The notes under the pieces were generated by a model that worked only from the letters and a program-made list of their open reading frames with translations, did no database searches and was not told the DNA's origin. Positions 4,975 through 42,547 of a stretch of DNA of 64,000 nt are shown here, piece by piece. The DNA lies in contig CP054185.1 of assembly GCA_015180985.1 (NCBI GenBank), positions 2,727,225 to 2,791,224 of the forward strand. The letters run 5' to 3'. Both the position numbers and the translations under genes were made by a program. The DNA is from Flammeovirgaceae bacterium. Lineage in GTDB: Bacteria > Bacteroidota > Bacteroidia > Cytophagales > Cyclobacteriaceae. Each line of letters begins with the position of its first letter. The first letter of the stretch is position 1.

Positions 4975-5286
4975 ATGAAAACAAAGAAAAGAAATTGGAT
5001 TCCTGTTTACCTGGTTGGGCGCGATTGCTTTCAGAAGCCGGTACTGGAAGCGCTCGACCGGTCTGACTTGCCCTTTATGCCGGGCTACTTGTTTGACAAC
5101 TCCCTTTCGGGCGACTACGGGATGTTATGGGTTGATGAGCAGGTTAACCTTCGCGAATACAAAAAAGCCATTGGCGGAAAGTTAATCTGGAAGCACCGGA
5201 TACGGTTTTTTACCGACCTGAATGAATTTACCTCCAATTCGAAGGCTCCTGTAAACACGCCTGAGGAGTTTGACACTGCAGCATAG
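4975..5286 (+). CDS. Small hypothetical protein
   Basis: This is a 103-residue protein I do not recognise. The frame stays open upstream to a TTG at 4885, but the ATG at 4975 gives a conventional start (MKTKKRNWIPVYLVGRD). The protein is mixed alpha/beta with many aromatic residues, no signal peptide and no membrane segment. The C-terminal tail after about residue 87 is rich in Asn, Ser, Pro and Glu and looks disordered. It lies between the divergent hrpB gene and a MaoC hydratase gene (58 bp gap, same strand), so it could be cotranscribed with the latter. A 22-codon open frame with an ATG at 4872 lies just upstream. Confidence 0.6.
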   Translation: MKTKKRNWIPVYLVGRDCFQKPVLEALDRSDLPFMPGYLFDNSLSGDYGMLWVDEQVNLREYKKAIGGKLIWKHRIRFFTDLNEFTSNSKAPVNTPEEFDTAA

Positions 5287-5917: not shown

Positions 5918-7117
5918 ATGGCGCCCCACAATGAACTGATTGATAACCGCAGGAAGAACCGGATTACCCATCCGTACCTGAATTTACTTGAGTTTGCCAC
6001 CCGGGAACGCACCTTTCTTATTATAATCGGAATTGCCTTCATCATGGCAGCCTTTGCTACCCTCAACTGGCACTTTGCCATGTGGCTTGGATTTACGTTT
6101 GCTTCCTACTCGGCTGTAGCCAACGACAGCATTCAATCGCTGGGTACGTTTATTGAAAGTAATAAAAAACGAAAGTGGTATATTCTCTGGCTGTTTACAG
6201 GGCTTATTCTGATAGTTACCATCTCGTTCAGCTATTTTTATTTTAAAGGTGATGTTACTTACCAGCGCCTGCTGGACGACCAGGGCAATACGGCTTACCC
6301 GCACCCCGAGACCTTTTCATTTTTTCAGATAATTGCCCCGATTGTTCTGCTGATTCTTACCCGGCTGCGCATGCCGGTGTCCACCACCTTTTTGCTGCTA
6401 AGTGTTTTCAGTGCTTCTGCGGAAGGCATTACTTCCATTGTTTCGAAAAGTATTTCGGGTTACCTCATTTCCTTTATTCTTTCATTCGTAATCTGGTACG
6501 CAGGATATGACCTTATCCGCAAATACTTTAAAAAAAGAAAAGCCCATGTTGCCTGGCCGATTATTCAATGGGCTGTCAGCGGAGCATTGTGGTCGGTTTG
6601 GCTGATGCAGGACGGAGCTAACATTGCCGTTTTCTTGCCGCGTAAACTTGAATTTTACCAGTTTATAATTTTCACAGGCACCATCTTCCTCGGGTTGGGC
6701 CTGTTGTTTTATCTGCGCGGGGATAAAATCCAGGAAATTGTAAGTGAAAAAGTAAGAATATCAGATGTACGGGCAGCTACGCTGGTTGACTTTACTTATG
6801 TGTTGCTGCTGATCTATAAATTACTTGACAGCACCGTTCCGCTGAGTACCACCTGGGTATTTCTGGGTGTGATTGGCGGGCGCGAAATTGCGGTGAACAT
6901 CGCGCGGAATAAAAAAGGCATGAAACACAAACGCAAAGCACTCGGCCAAATCGGCCGTGATTTGCTGTATGCCACCATCGGGCTTATTATCTCAGTAGCA
7001 CTTGCATCAGGTGCTAACCCGTTAATACGGAAAGAGATTATGGATTTTCTCTCGTCACTTACAGACTTCAGCGCCTTCAGTTGGCTGGCGTGGTGGCTTC
7101 CGGTATATCTACGGTAA
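5918..7117 (+). CDS. Divergent PiT-like (inorganic phosphate transporter family) membrane protein
   Basis: This 399-residue protein has roughly ten hydrophobic segments. It carries two copies of a motif pair that recalls the duplicated PiT/PHO4 signature. In the first half these are VANDSIQSLGT (67-77) and PVSTT (153-157); in the second half, DGANI (232-236) and VPLSTTW (307-313). PiT proteins use GAND and PVSTTH-type motifs in both repeats to bind phosphate and cation. Here the repeats are recognisable but altered, with Ala-Asn-Asp in one half and Gly-Ala-Asn-Ile in the other, and no His after STT. The substrate may therefore differ. The 3' end overlaps the converging kinase pseudogene by 41 bp. 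The family assignment is inference from motifs. Confidence 0.6.
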   Translation: MAPHNELIDNRRKNRITHPYLNLLEFATRERTFLIIIGIAFIMAAFATLNWHFAMWLGFTFASYSAVANDSIQSLGTFIESNKKRKWYILWLFTGLILIVTISFSYFYFKGDVTYQRLLDDQGNTAYPHPETFSFFQIIAPIVLLILTRLRMPVSTTFLLLSVFSASAEGITSIVSKSISGYLISFILSFVIWYAGYDLIRKYFKKRKAHVAWPIIQWAVSGALWSVWLMQDGANIAVFLPRKLEFYQFIIFTGTIFLGLGLLFYLRGDKIQEIVSEKVRISDVRAATLVDFTYVLLLIYKLLDSTVPLSTTWVFLGVIGGREIAVNIARNKKGMKHKRKALGQIGRDLLYATIGLIISVALASGANPLIRKEIMDFLSSLTDFSAFSWLAWWLPVYLR

Positions 7118-8727
7118 CTGTAGTTCCCTCTCCTTCGGTTGAGGTTATCGCTATCGAACCATTCAGTTTAGCCAGAGTTTCTTTTACAATATAAAGCCCA
7201 AGCCCCGAACCGGCCCCCTCATCCGTTGCACGGTAAAACATCTTTCCGAGGTTCGGCAAATGTTCTTTGCTTATTCCTCGTCCGTTATCCGCAACCGAAA
7301 TTCGATATAAGATTGTTCAGGATGATTTTCAGTCGCCATTTGTCGCAGTAAAACTCCTGAGGTTGGTTAATCTCAACAATCCGTTCAAATTGAACGCCCT
7401 TCAGGTTGGCATAACTAAGTTGCTCAAAGGTTTCGTCAACCAACTGGCTTAACTGAACCGATTCGGGTTTAACTTCCAGCCGGGCGTTGCGCGACTGATC
7501 GAGAATTTCGCGAATGAAATAATCCTGCTGCCTTGCGCTTTTTTCAATCATTTCTAAATACATAATCGAATTGGTGCCCTGATCTTTTTTAGCCAGATTA
7601 ATCAATCCAAGTATGGAAGAAATGGGAGCCCGTAAATCATGCGAAACGCTGTAAACAAAATTATCGAGCTCCATATTTCGCTTCATTAACTCTTTGTTGC
7701 TTTGCTCAAGCTTATCCTGGGTTTCAATACGTTTATTAATCTCGTCCATAAGCGCTTTCGTACGTTGCTGAACGGTTGATTCCAGGTTCTCATTAAACCG
7801 CTTTAAATCGTTCTGAGCTTGCTGGCGTTCATTAACTGCCGAAGAAAGCACCAGTGCCGAAAGACTTATTACCCCTACGTAAACCTGCACCAGGAATATT
7901 GAATTAGCAGGTGGCCCGTCCATTGTAAAAGGGCCTACATTATGGCCGGTAAAATAAAAGGCTGTTATAGCAACTAAAATCAATGCAACGGTTGATACAA
8001 CCGTGTGGAACCGAAACGCAAGCCATAACAAAAGCGGAATGACAGCAAACGGGTACACATACGGAGCCACCTGATTAACATAGTCGGTTGATAAAAGTGC
8101 AAATACCAGCAATGCGCTCAGGATGAGCAAAGCGAACTCGCCTGCTTTCTGGAAATCAGGCTTCGTAATACGAAGTTGAGCAACCGAAATTAAAAGTGGG
8201 GCGAATAAGATCATGCCGGTTACGTTGCTGAGCCACAATTCAAAAAAGCGGGTAAACACCAACTCATTTGAAATAACCGATGAAAGATTAAGGCTAAGTA
8301 CAATGAAGGAAGAACTGATAACCGAAACAACAAAAACCACCAGCACAAACTGGAAAGCATGCAGGGTAGTTGAAAACGGATAAGTTTTTTTAACAAGCCG
8401 GTTAAGCAGGTAGTGACCGGCCAATGGCTCTAACACCCGGCCTGCGGCAATTGCTGCCGAAACGGCAATGATTATTTCAACCGAACCAATTGCATTATTC
8501 CAGAAACCTTTTACAGCAATAATCAGCGAACCGATGGCTATACCAGGCCAAACCCTGCGCCCGAGCAGCATAACCAACGCCAGACCAATGCCGGCAGGCG
8601 GCCACAGCGGCAGAACTCCTGTAGTGCCAAAGTACAGAAAGTACCCGAGCTCGGCCATCAGGTAATATGCCAGAGCAACCAGCAAAATCATCAAATCGGG
8701 CGATTGCCAAATCATCAACTTTTTCAT
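7077..8727 (-). pseudogene. MASE1-domain sensor histidine kinase, broken by an out-of-frame deletion
   Basis: The intact 5' part (start 8727) encodes a MASE1-type integral membrane sensor (eight or so segments, PPAGIGLALVMLLGRR near residue 43). A coiled coil and a HisKA domain with the phospho-acceptor in SVSHDLRAP follow. The frame reads into the N box (LNNLISN) at about 7300-7317 and then hits a stop near 7285. In another frame the G1 box DNGRGI (7272-7289) and the G2 box GSGLGLYIVK continue to a TGA at 7077. Only about 10 nt separate the N-box Asn from the G1-box Asp. In the other kinase of this window there are 28 residues, so about 70-80 bp appear to be missing. The ATPase domain cannot be made as read. 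An assembly error is the alternative. Confidence 0.8.
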
Positions 8728-41737: not shown

Positions 41738-41767
41738 AAAAAAGTCCTGACCGTTGGTCAGGACTTT
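41738..41767 (-). terminator. Strong intrinsic terminator after the tRNA-like gene
   Basis: A perfect 12-bp inverted repeat, AAAGTCCTGACC (41741-41752) with GGTCAGGACTTT (41756-41767), has a 3-nt loop. Read leftward it is followed by six T (41743-41738), placing it 26 nt past the CCA end of the tRNA-like RNA. Confidence 0.9.
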
Positions 41768-41792: not shown

Positions 41793-41961
41793 TGGCTGTA
41801 GAGGGAGGGCTCGAACCTCCACGGGGAAGTTAGCTACAGAACAACCAGTGGTGGTCAACCCCTGTCTGCCGCAGTACCTTCGGCAGGCTATATCCTGCGT
41901 TTATCCTTGACTCCCCACCCCCGAGACAGGAGGGCTTGTCTGCCAATTTCAACACCCTACA
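41793..41961 (-). tRNA. tRNA-like RNA, class II body with a 97-nt variable region, anticodon loop reads GTC
   Basis: Read leftward from 41961, the RNA folds as a complete cloverleaf. The acceptor is TGTAGGG with CTCTACA, followed by G73 and an encoded CCA (41795-41793). The D arm is TTG/CAA with a loop containing GG, and TG fills positions 8-9. The anticodon stem is CCCTC/GGGGG with loop CTGTCTC (41929-41923), giving anticodon GTC. The T arm is GGAGG-TTCGAGC-CCTCC. The D arm and TG-TTG-AAATTGGCAGA run resemble bacterial tRNA-Leu. The variable region (41917-41821) starts and ends with a leucine-like stem GGGGA/TCCCC but contains about 80 extra nt. Total length is 169 nt against about 87 for a normal class II tRNA. 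U37 and T1 are unusual. A pseudogene is possible. Confidence 0.65.
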
Positions 41962-42082
41962 GTGTACAAACGTTGACAAAGAGAAAAATTGTTATGTTTT
42001 TATTCAACATATTCATTTTTTTTTATAAAATATTTAATTAATTTGATATTAAATGAATATTTTTTATAAATGAAAGAGATGT
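41962..42082. other. AT-rich intergenic region upstream of the Lrp gene and the tRNA-like gene
   Basis: These 121 bp separate the leftward tRNA-like gene from the rightward Lrp gene and must contain promoters for both. The DNA is very AT-rich, with TTTATAAAATATTTAATTAA-like stretches around 42020-42040. No exact TAnnTTTG box was found for either direction. Confidence 0.45.
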
Positions 42083-42547
42083 ATGCCCCAGAATTATAAA
42101 ATTGACAATACCGATTTGAAGATTCTTGAAATCTTAATGCGTGATGCCAGCAGGCCGCTTAGCGAGATAGCCAACAAGGTTCATGTTTCAGTAGGCACGG
42201 TACATGTGCGCACCAACAAGCTTCGTGAGTCCGGCATTATCGAGAAGACAACCCTGAAGGTAAACTACGCAAAACTCGGTTACGACATTACGGCATTCAT
42301 AGGTATCTTCCTGGAAAAGAGTGCTTTATACGATTCAGTGATGGCTAAACTTAAAGCCATACCGGAAATTACCAATATCCATTATACCACAGGTAACTAC
42401 AGCATGTTCGTAAAAATCCACTGTAAAGACACTAACCACCTCAAACTGGTATTGCACGATAAAATCCAGCAGGTTGATGGAATTGAGCGTACAGAAACCA
42501 TGATTTCGCTGGAAGAAAGCCTGGATCGTAACCTTAACCTGCTTTAA
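42083..42547 (+). CDS. Lrp/AsnC-family transcriptional regulator
   Basis: This 154-residue protein has an N-terminal winged helix-turn-helix (DNTDLKILEILMRDASRPL then SEIANKVHVSVGTVHVRTNK) and a C-terminal RAM ligand-binding domain (residues about 65-150). Family members form octameric or larger rings and sense amino acids. It lies 85 bp before sufB on the same strand. It may control the suf operon or respond to amino acid state; the sequence does not show which. The ATG at 42083 follows an AT-rich leader. Confidence 0.92.
   Translation: MPQNYKIDNTDLKILEILMRDASRPLSEIANKVHVSVGTVHVRTNKLRESGIIEKTTLKVNYAKLGYDITAFIGIFLEKSALYDSVMAKLKAIPEITNIHYTTGNYSMFVKIHCKDTNHLKLVLHDKIQQVDGIERTETMISLEESLDRNLNLL

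Follow-up and report, generated by a model that had tools for sequence, protein, structure and literature searches.

A tRNA-like gene in the genome of a Flammeovirgaceae bacterium is a member of a conserved family of tRNA-shaped RNAs found in Bacteroidota and their phages. The family is widespread, with 1 to 11 copies per positive genome, and is missed by ARAGORN and Rfam 15. The reading that we favor, with somewhat more confidence than doubt, is that the RNA does not decode and would instead act as a dedicated carrier tRNA on which asparagine is formed by the tRNA-dependent route. The gene lies in a stretch of 64,000 nucleotides, the whole of which is referred to here as the window.

Anatomy of the window copy

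All the elements that a first-pass annotation of this DNA had described (four arms, elbow loops, G73, CCA, and a variable region of about 97 nt) are present on the minus strand at 41961-41793, and the 12-bp terminator that it had placed downstream of the RNA is found at 41767-41741. The RNA and its parts are as follows.

41793..41961, minus strand: whole tRNA-like RNA, with a body at 41961-41796 (ending in G73) and an encoded CCA at 41795-41793
41797..41961, minus strand: acceptor stem, 5' strand TGTAGGG (41961-41955) and 3' strand CTCTACA (41803-41797), with U-A as pair 1-72 and G-C as pair 2-71
41796, minus strand: discriminator base G73, kept in 217/217 and 237/237 copies of two overlapping sets
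41936..41952, minus strand: Leu-like D arm, stem TTG/CAA (41952-41950 / 41938-41936) and loop AAATTGGCAGA (41949-41939)
41918..41934, minus strand: anticodon-like arm, stem CCCTC/GGGGG (41934-41930 / 41922-41918) and loop CTGTCTC (41929-41923)
41927, 41926, 41925, 41924, and 41923, minus strand: anticodon-like loop bases G34, U35, C36, U37, and C38, respectively
41823..41916, minus strand: variable arm, made up of V1, bulge, V2, internal loop, closing pair, and V3
41916-41913 / 41826-41823, minus strand: V1 stem, supported by the pair scoring in 52 copies
41912-41909, minus strand: variable-arm bulge of 4 nt
41908-41906 / 41829-41827, minus strand: V2 stem, which covaries in 29 long-class inserts
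41905-41900 / 41833-41830, minus strand: variable-arm internal loop, GATAAA / CTAA
41899-41834, minus strand: variable-arm closing pair, a standard pair in 197/217 copies
41897-41891 / 41843-41837, minus strand: V3 stem, CAGGATA / TGTTCTG, which covaries in 29 long-class inserts
41866..41886, minus strand: lineage-specific hairpin CTGCCG/CGGCAG, the 3' side of which overlaps AGACAGG (41867-41861)
41851..41860, minus strand: GGTTGACCAC motif, the apical element of long-class inserts, with variants in 99/213 unique inserts
41804..41820, minus strand: T arm, stem GGAGG/CCTCC (41820-41816 / 41808-41804, 100% paired in 52 copies) and loop TTCGAGC

In this copy, 97 nt (41917-41821) separate the anticodon and T stems. 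It scores 128.3 bits with our covariance model, R1. When the window copy was folded singly, its stability was no better than that of shuffled sequences (z 0.19), so that single-sequence folding gives no signal and the evidence beyond chance is comparative. The encoded CCA of the window copy is shared by a minority of the family, with GCCA in 27/237 parsed copies; N73 followed by C, with no encoded CCA, is also the commoner arrangement in the same genome, where 7/38 tRNA genes encode it. The suggestion that AGACAGG (41867-41861) masks the anticodon did not survive comparison. This string is present in only 2/237 parsed copies, namely the window copy (L001) and that of a congener (L002), and is absent from a third congener (L003).

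The fold and the variable arm

We scored 25 named pairs in 52 diverse copies. In total, 99.2% of the cells were paired, compared to 90.0% in shuffles and 53-62% when the pairs were slid, and the observed level was reached in 0/500 shuffles. Double changes were detected at 15/25 pairs: acceptor pairs 4-7 vary with compensation, and the D-arm pair 10-25 covaries among U-A, A-U, and G-C. This pattern of pairing indicates that the cloverleaf fold, with its acceptor, D, anticodon, and T arms, is under selection.

In plan, the variable arm has a 4-bp V1 and a 3-bp V2, an internal loop (AYAAA / CTAA), and one more helix. Covariation of this helix and of V2 is seen in 29 long-class inserts. Within CTAA, the four bases are conserved in 207, 202, 212, and 211 of 213 inserts. 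A GACCAC motif, in the form GTTGACCAC, ATTGACCAC, GTAGACCAC, or GTCGACCAC, occurs in 99/213 unique inserts, and GAGCTC occurs in 25/213. Long-class inserts reach 112 nt, while short inserts of 27-34 nt are found in 26/217 copies and one copy has an insert of 4 nt. Since covarying helices of its own are maintained in the variable region, nothing suggests splicing of a tRNA intron. The anticodon stem can be read as containing an anti-Shine-Dalgarno string, CCUCCU, but variation at the fourth pair of this stem means that the string is not a conserved one. Separately, several copies (L018:1611-1742, L018:1791-1922, L028, and L263) are interrupted by palindromes of the type TCCCGATAGCTATCGGGA, which appear to be a mobile short repeat and are located either in the variable arm or between the D and anticodon loops.

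Distribution and detection of the family

R1 was built from 52 copies. With presence defined as E <= 1e-20 or 1e-19, R1 detected the RNA in 123/148 genomes of the family (1 to 11 copies each), 171/241 genomes of the order, and 61/345 genomes of the class, counts that may miss divergent copies since most sources of R1 came from pattern searches and searches over 40 genomes used stricter filters. BLAST with the window copy gave 122/148 family genomes at E <= 0.001, some of the matches being partial. Given the covariation and wide conservation, the decaying gene that the first-pass annotation had listed as an alternative is not supported.

Across 395 genomes of the phylum, the matches listed formed a group at >=86 bits, plus one 76-nt short form at 70 bits; the next matches listed were of about 84 nt and <=62 bits. 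We take the latter for canonical tRNA-Leu; in the viral loci, hits of this kind coincide with ARAGORN tRNA-Leu genes. Two further copies, from the class-level search, scored 77 and 81 bits. Carriers among the matches listed include Cyclobacteriaceae, Fulvivirga, Flammeovirga, Sporocytophaga, Cesiribacter, Hymenobacter, and Saprospiraceae, as well as metagenome-assembled genomes (MAGs) of Chitinophagaceae and Flavobacteriales. The genome that contains the window has a single copy; it also has tRNA-Asp(GTC) and several tRNAs of the Leu and Ser types. In one MAG titled Rickettsiales (L078, PBTY01000006.1), the RNA adjoins the same AsnC-like gene as in Bacteroidota; the label is probably a mislabelling or reflects contamination.

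A sequence-pattern search located the RNA in 34 viral contigs. By BLAST, the window copy had no match in annotated phages or plasmids and the viral copy L157 had none in annotated phages; with the viral copy L151, a single huge-phage record (LR756504.1) was matched.

Standard tools did not report the RNA. ARAGORN called no tRNA in the window or at the first 30 homologous loci. With Rfam 15, neither the window nor 20 homologue-bearing loci gave a match that reached the gathering score. In the same genome, the RNA was not among the 38 matches to RF00005 (150/192 candidates scored). Titles and abstract openings in the open-licence literature yielded no description of such an RNA, which lends weak support to its absence from print; the family apparently has not been described so far.

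Aspartate identity elements, an asparagine amidation signal, and a loop mostly unsuited to decoding

To count conserved bases, we used two overlapping sets. The main set holds 217 unique copies (234 model matches minus 14 duplicates, 2 truncated copies, and one 28-bit match), found by model or BLAST independently of the loop pattern and including inserts of <35 nt. The other, of 237 copies found by BLAST and pattern, was parsed earlier. The genome-contig and viral patterns fixed GTCTC, and loops obtained with them were therefore kept out of the identity counts.

U1-A72, G2-C71, and G73 are each present in 217/217 copies. In the 237-copy set, G2-C71 and G73 are likewise invariant (237/237), and U1-A72 is found in 235/237, the exceptions being L033 (A-A) and L169 (A-U). 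Among 214 seven-base loops, U35 and C36 are present in all 214, C38 in 212, and G34 in 194, base 34 being A, U, or C in the other 20/214. According to the excerpted parts of two published studies, G73, G34, U35, C36, and C38 are the strong aspartate determinants and G2-C71 is a minor one (PMC9976931; PMC6523644). The five strong determinants are all present in the window copy. The first-pass annotation was right about G73 and C38 as AspRS identity elements, which proved to be the key to our reading, and about the GTC anticodon and the Leu-like body.

As far as the excerpts of PMC9976931 and PMC4206432 describe it, U1-A72 is what allows Asp-tRNA-Asn to be amidated, while G1-C72 and U20a prevent amidation in tRNA-Asp. 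In our own numbering, base 20a of the RNA is A in 210/213 copies, U in 2, and C in 1. The RNA thus unites the Asp anticodon set with U1-A72, the signal for amidation to Asn. At position 10, A or U predominates, so that G10, an Asp element in E. coli, is absent from most copies, and G1-C72, which is strictly conserved in bacterial tRNA-Asp, is replaced by U1-A72; charging with Asp could consequently be weak. The acceptor end also fits SerRS or GlnRS identity in part (PMC9976931, in the excerpted text), but U35, C36, and C38 point to AspRS.

The bases flanking the anticodon are another matter. U33 is present in 176/214 loops, and position 37 is a pyrimidine in 205/214 and a purine in 9/214; U33 together with a purine at 37, as decoding needs, occurs in 9/214 loops. 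A non-canonical tRNA with a Leu-like body and an Asp-type anticodon, as first suggested for the window copy, is supported, with decoding positions 33 and 37 not kept across the family.

Among 190 copies with longer inserts, 12/128 genomes are left without any copy bearing the full identity set. Two copies from genus g85 (L276 in genome G309 and L274 in G527) have C34 in the loop, and the sole copy of G218 (L289), a form of 76 nt, has A34 and a variable loop of normal size. G309 also has AsnA, which would fit decay of the RNA where a synthetase is present, yet AsnA occurs alongside copies with the full identity set in G078, G305, and G543.

Co-occurrence with GatB and asparagine synthetases

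We compared 40 genomes with the RNA to 40 without it, hand-chosen from the high-completeness genomes listed, and searched them for GatB as a marker of GatCAB. GatB was found in 40/40 genomes with the RNA (at C1:2325884-2327305 in the genome of the window). Among the genomes without the RNA, it was found in 3/28 from the same family, order, or class (G188, G540, and G546) and in 12/12 sampled from other classes of the phylum. Excluding three RNA-containing genomes of another class, the comparison is 37/37 versus 3/28 (Fisher p = 5e-15, a nominal value, as are all Fisher values here, since the genomes are related). The two features also go together within families: both are absent from G010 in family f1, from G149 and G266 in f4, and from G259 and G164 in f5, and both are present in G225, G244, and G403 in f4 and in nine other f5 genomes.

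AsnRS scored over its cut-off in 78/80 genomes, including all 40 with the RNA, so that GatCAB is not needed there merely to supply Asn-tRNA-Asn. A GlnRS signature was not found in the window, in 1.2 Mb of its genome, or in the loci examined; GlnRS is thus not established by this search, and GatCAB could serve tRNA-Gln.

Turning to asparagine synthetases, AsnA was detected in 4/40 genomes with the RNA (one match lying just under the cut-off) versus 7/28 without. Taken together, AsnB-family proteins do not distinguish the two groups, being over the cut-off in 34/40 versus 24/28. Within this family, we defined an "E. coli-type AsnB" as a class of our own (a split profile match in an open reading frame of 528-584 aa), which among the matches listed was present in 0/40 genomes with the RNA versus 19/28 without. 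AsnA or E. coli-type AsnB, again among the matches listed, was found in 4/40 versus 22/28 (p = 1.3e-8, nominal). In six genomes with the RNA (G057, G293, G332, G391, G411, and G752), AsnA had no match and the AsnB family had none over the cut-off; the same is true of G164, which lacks the RNA and GatB as well. The genome of the window encodes two long AsnB-family proteins, which may make asparagine. The excerpted text of PMC4206432 describes genera, some of them Bacteroidetes, with AsnRS, GlnRS, and GatCAB but no asparagine synthetase, and considers for them asparagine synthesis on tRNA-Asn by a relaxed AspRS.

Genomic neighborhood and signals for expression and processing

Three further features of the window flank the RNA.

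42083..42547, plus strand: AsnC-like regulator gene of the Lrp/AsnC family (PF01037 + PF13412), divergent neighbor of the RNA
41977..42007, minus strand: possible promoter, TTG (42007-42005) and TTTG (41980-41977)
41741..41767, minus strand: intrinsic terminator with a 12-bp stem, a 3-nt loop, and a T tract

Of 12 NCBIfam models matched by the neighboring protein, the best is AsnC (NF008384), with 168 bits against a cut-off of 227, for which reason we name it "AsnC-like" only; the Lrp model gives 41 bits. The same Lrp/AsnC-family gene is the divergent neighbor of the RNA in 51/143 chromosomal loci, a count in which some contigs appear twice under two labels. Among the 72 best-scoring loci retrieved with the model, the AsnC-like neighbor is present in at least 46, a lower bound since some flanks are short, and all 46 are divergent. 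In the window, sufB follows the AsnC-like gene and an acyl-CoA ligase gene lies on the other side of the RNA; these recur in 29 and 28 loci, respectively. The earlier proposal to compare the fadD-lrp locus among relatives was well aimed, its "lrp" gene being the AsnC-like, conserved neighbor. This adjacency may reflect an old gene order.

TTG and TTTG would correspond to the Bacteroidota -33/-7 promoter type. By eye, TTTG..TANNTTTG occurs in the same intergenic space of many relatives, and many chromosomal copies have a promoter-like leader before them and a terminator-like hairpin after them. A sigma-70 scan, which does not model the -33/-7 type, gave no site at the possible promoter. In many Cyclobacteriaceae copies (for example, L011, L012, L013, L033, and, in slightly different form, L024), a conserved trailer TTATTTTGGGTTTATTGTTAATTGACTAAAGC lies between the 3' end and the terminator; it was not seen by eye after the tRNA genes of the genome of the window.

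In phage arrays L157, L158, L171, L179, L181, and L182, only 4-9 nt separate a copy from tRNA genes called by ARAGORN. With such spacing, the ends of the RNA should be made by tRNA processing, and the RNA is probably processed like a tRNA.

Proposed function and alternatives

We propose the following route. The RNA would be transcribed alone or within phage tRNA arrays, trimmed in the manner of a tRNA, and completed with CCA, as its anatomy suggests. AspRS would then recognize the conserved G73, G2-C71, G34, U35, C36, and C38 and attach Asp. The conserved U1-A72, together with the co-occurrence of GatB, suggests that GatCAB could turn Asp-RNA into Asn-RNA; a true tRNA-Asp, with G1-C72, would resist this amidation. 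The altered loop and the large variable arm would keep Asn-RNA(GUC) from reading Asp codons. Asparagine would finally be released for general use, the weakest step of the scheme. The AsnC-like regulator, observed in divergent orientation next to the RNA, may set the level of the RNA in response to asparagine. In its fullest form, to which we give belief and doubt in equal measure, the proposal would be of a Bacteroidota tRNA that never serves translation: a tRNA-Asp/tRNA-Asn hybrid on a tRNA-Leu body, acting as a reusable cofactor of AspRS and GatCAB in place of AsnA and AsnB, controlled by the AsnC-like protein and carried by large phages. If true, it would show that evolution can turn a tRNA of mixed identity into a cofactor dedicated to metabolism. 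It would also offer one explanation of asparagine formation, with no need of a relaxed AspRS, in the Bacteroidota that, in the excerpted text of PMC4206432, have AsnRS, GlnRS, and GatCAB but no synthetase.

The Asp identity elements would be expected equally of an Asp-chargeable tRNA mimic, bound or charged by AspRS, that would work with AsnC as a regulator or sensor, reporting or buffering the supply of Asp and Asn with no biosynthetic role as a carrier. The AsnC-like neighbor and the AsnB-family proteins over the cut-off in 34/40 RNA-containing genomes would suit such a sensor, which would also be spared the release of asparagine that the carrier reading leaves unexplained. By itself, however, sensing does not account for U1-A72 in 217/217 copies or for the association with GatB, unless amidation is the sensed step, and we regard it as rather unlikely.

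A structural small RNA housed in a tRNA shell, which would serve its processing and its stability, with a working variable arm and identity elements that are relics, would explain the conserved variable-arm domain with its covarying helices and fixed internal loop, as well as the loss of G34 from 20/214 loops; a second phage RNA family (see below) does put a tRNA-Leu-like shell around arbitrary inserts. If the identity elements were relics, however, 1-72, 2-71, 73, 35, 36, and 38 would not have stayed near-invariant alongside the drift seen in pairs 4-7 and at base 33. The link to GatB is left without a reason, and the inserts of 26/217 copies are only 27-34 nt long, with one of 4 nt. These points make the structural reading distinctly unlikely.

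The presence of the RNA in 34 viral contigs, and in up to 11 copies per genome, might suggest a phage-derived decoy or a mobile element spread in tandem. We hold this to be very improbable, given a chromosomal position beside the AsnC-like gene that is conserved across many genera, promoter-like and terminator-like sequences (by eye), and the GatB association.

There is the slimmest chance that the RNA decodes, as an unusual tRNA-Asp or a suppressor-like tRNA inserting Asp or Asn at GAC/GAU: the GUC anticodon, the intact elbow, and the phage tRNA arrays would agree with it, but only 9/214 loops have U33 with a purine at 37, and 20/214 have A, U, or C as base 34. The genome also has a normal tRNA-Asp(GUC), and toxicity would be expected if Asn were inserted at Asp codons.

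Comparison with known systems

The proposed carrier most resembles the route in which a nondiscriminating AspRS and GatCAB act on tRNA-Asn in Deinococcus, Thermus, and Bdellovibrio. Both would use AspRS followed by GatCAB, with U1-A72 as the amidation signal, and the known route occurs where asparagine synthetases are missing despite the presence of AsnRS (PMC4206432, in the excerpted text). The known route, however, employs a translational tRNA-Asn and a relaxed AspRS, whereas here a separate RNA has a loop that is mostly unfit for decoding. Since the Asp anticodon is on this RNA itself, an AspRS of the ordinary, discriminating kind could be enough.

With bacterial tRNA-Asp(GUC), the RNA shares G73, G2-C71, U3-A70, and a loop of C-U-G-U-C-N-C (CTGTCAC in the tRNA-Asp of the same genome); it differs in its Leu-like D arm, its insert, U1-A72 in place of G1-C72, the usual absence of G10, and a pyrimidine at position 37. 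With class II tRNA-Leu, it shares the D arm GAAAYTGGCAGAC, A15 and U48 (our own numbering), and a long variable arm; unlike tRNA-Leu, it has G73 rather than A73, a GUC-type loop, and a conserved internal loop in the variable arm. Staphylococci have a non-translational tRNA-Gly that serves cell-wall synthesis. It, too, is a tRNA retained for work away from the ribosome, with a different amino acid, pathway, and structure.

YrlA-type bacterial Y RNAs have a tRNA-like domain too, and the UUGACC string of our RNA resembles Y RNA. The acceptor stem of our RNA, in contrast, is closed. No match to the TROVE/Rsr protein (PF05731) was found in the genome, and Rfam gave no match at gathering score and none to any Y RNA family at E <= 10. 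Thus, of the readings put forward by the first-pass annotation, the non-canonical tRNA is supported, and the Y-RNA-like RNA, the decaying gene, and the anticodon-masking fold (2/237 copies) are not. A tmRNA-like role was also discarded: the RNA has no Rfam match, and a separate, normal tmRNA is located at C1:1636287-1636677.

Other tRNA-like genes

The viral tRNA arrays contain a second tRNA-shell family, with constant tRNA-Leu-like ends (AGTCAGGTGGCG...CCTGACTA) around hypervariable inserts of 60-100 nt. Its members have no evident anticodon arm and receive no ARAGORN call. They are located as follows.

L157, minus strand: 7683-7830, 6478-6616, 6143-6262, 5130-5276, 7947-8052, and 8137-8251
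Other loci: L158:4907-5049, L158:5866-5973, L178:3170-3298, L179:5065-5185, L179:5270-5412, L181, and L182

In another viral tRNA array, an ARAGORN tmRNA call (L183:543-885) overlaps tRNAs. Finally, the genome of the window has two tRNAs (L220; C1:3052813-3052889 and C1:3054170-3054247) that combine a Ser-like D arm and a long variable arm with an Ile (GAT) anticodon, and these are the two lowest scores of the 38 tRNA-model matches.
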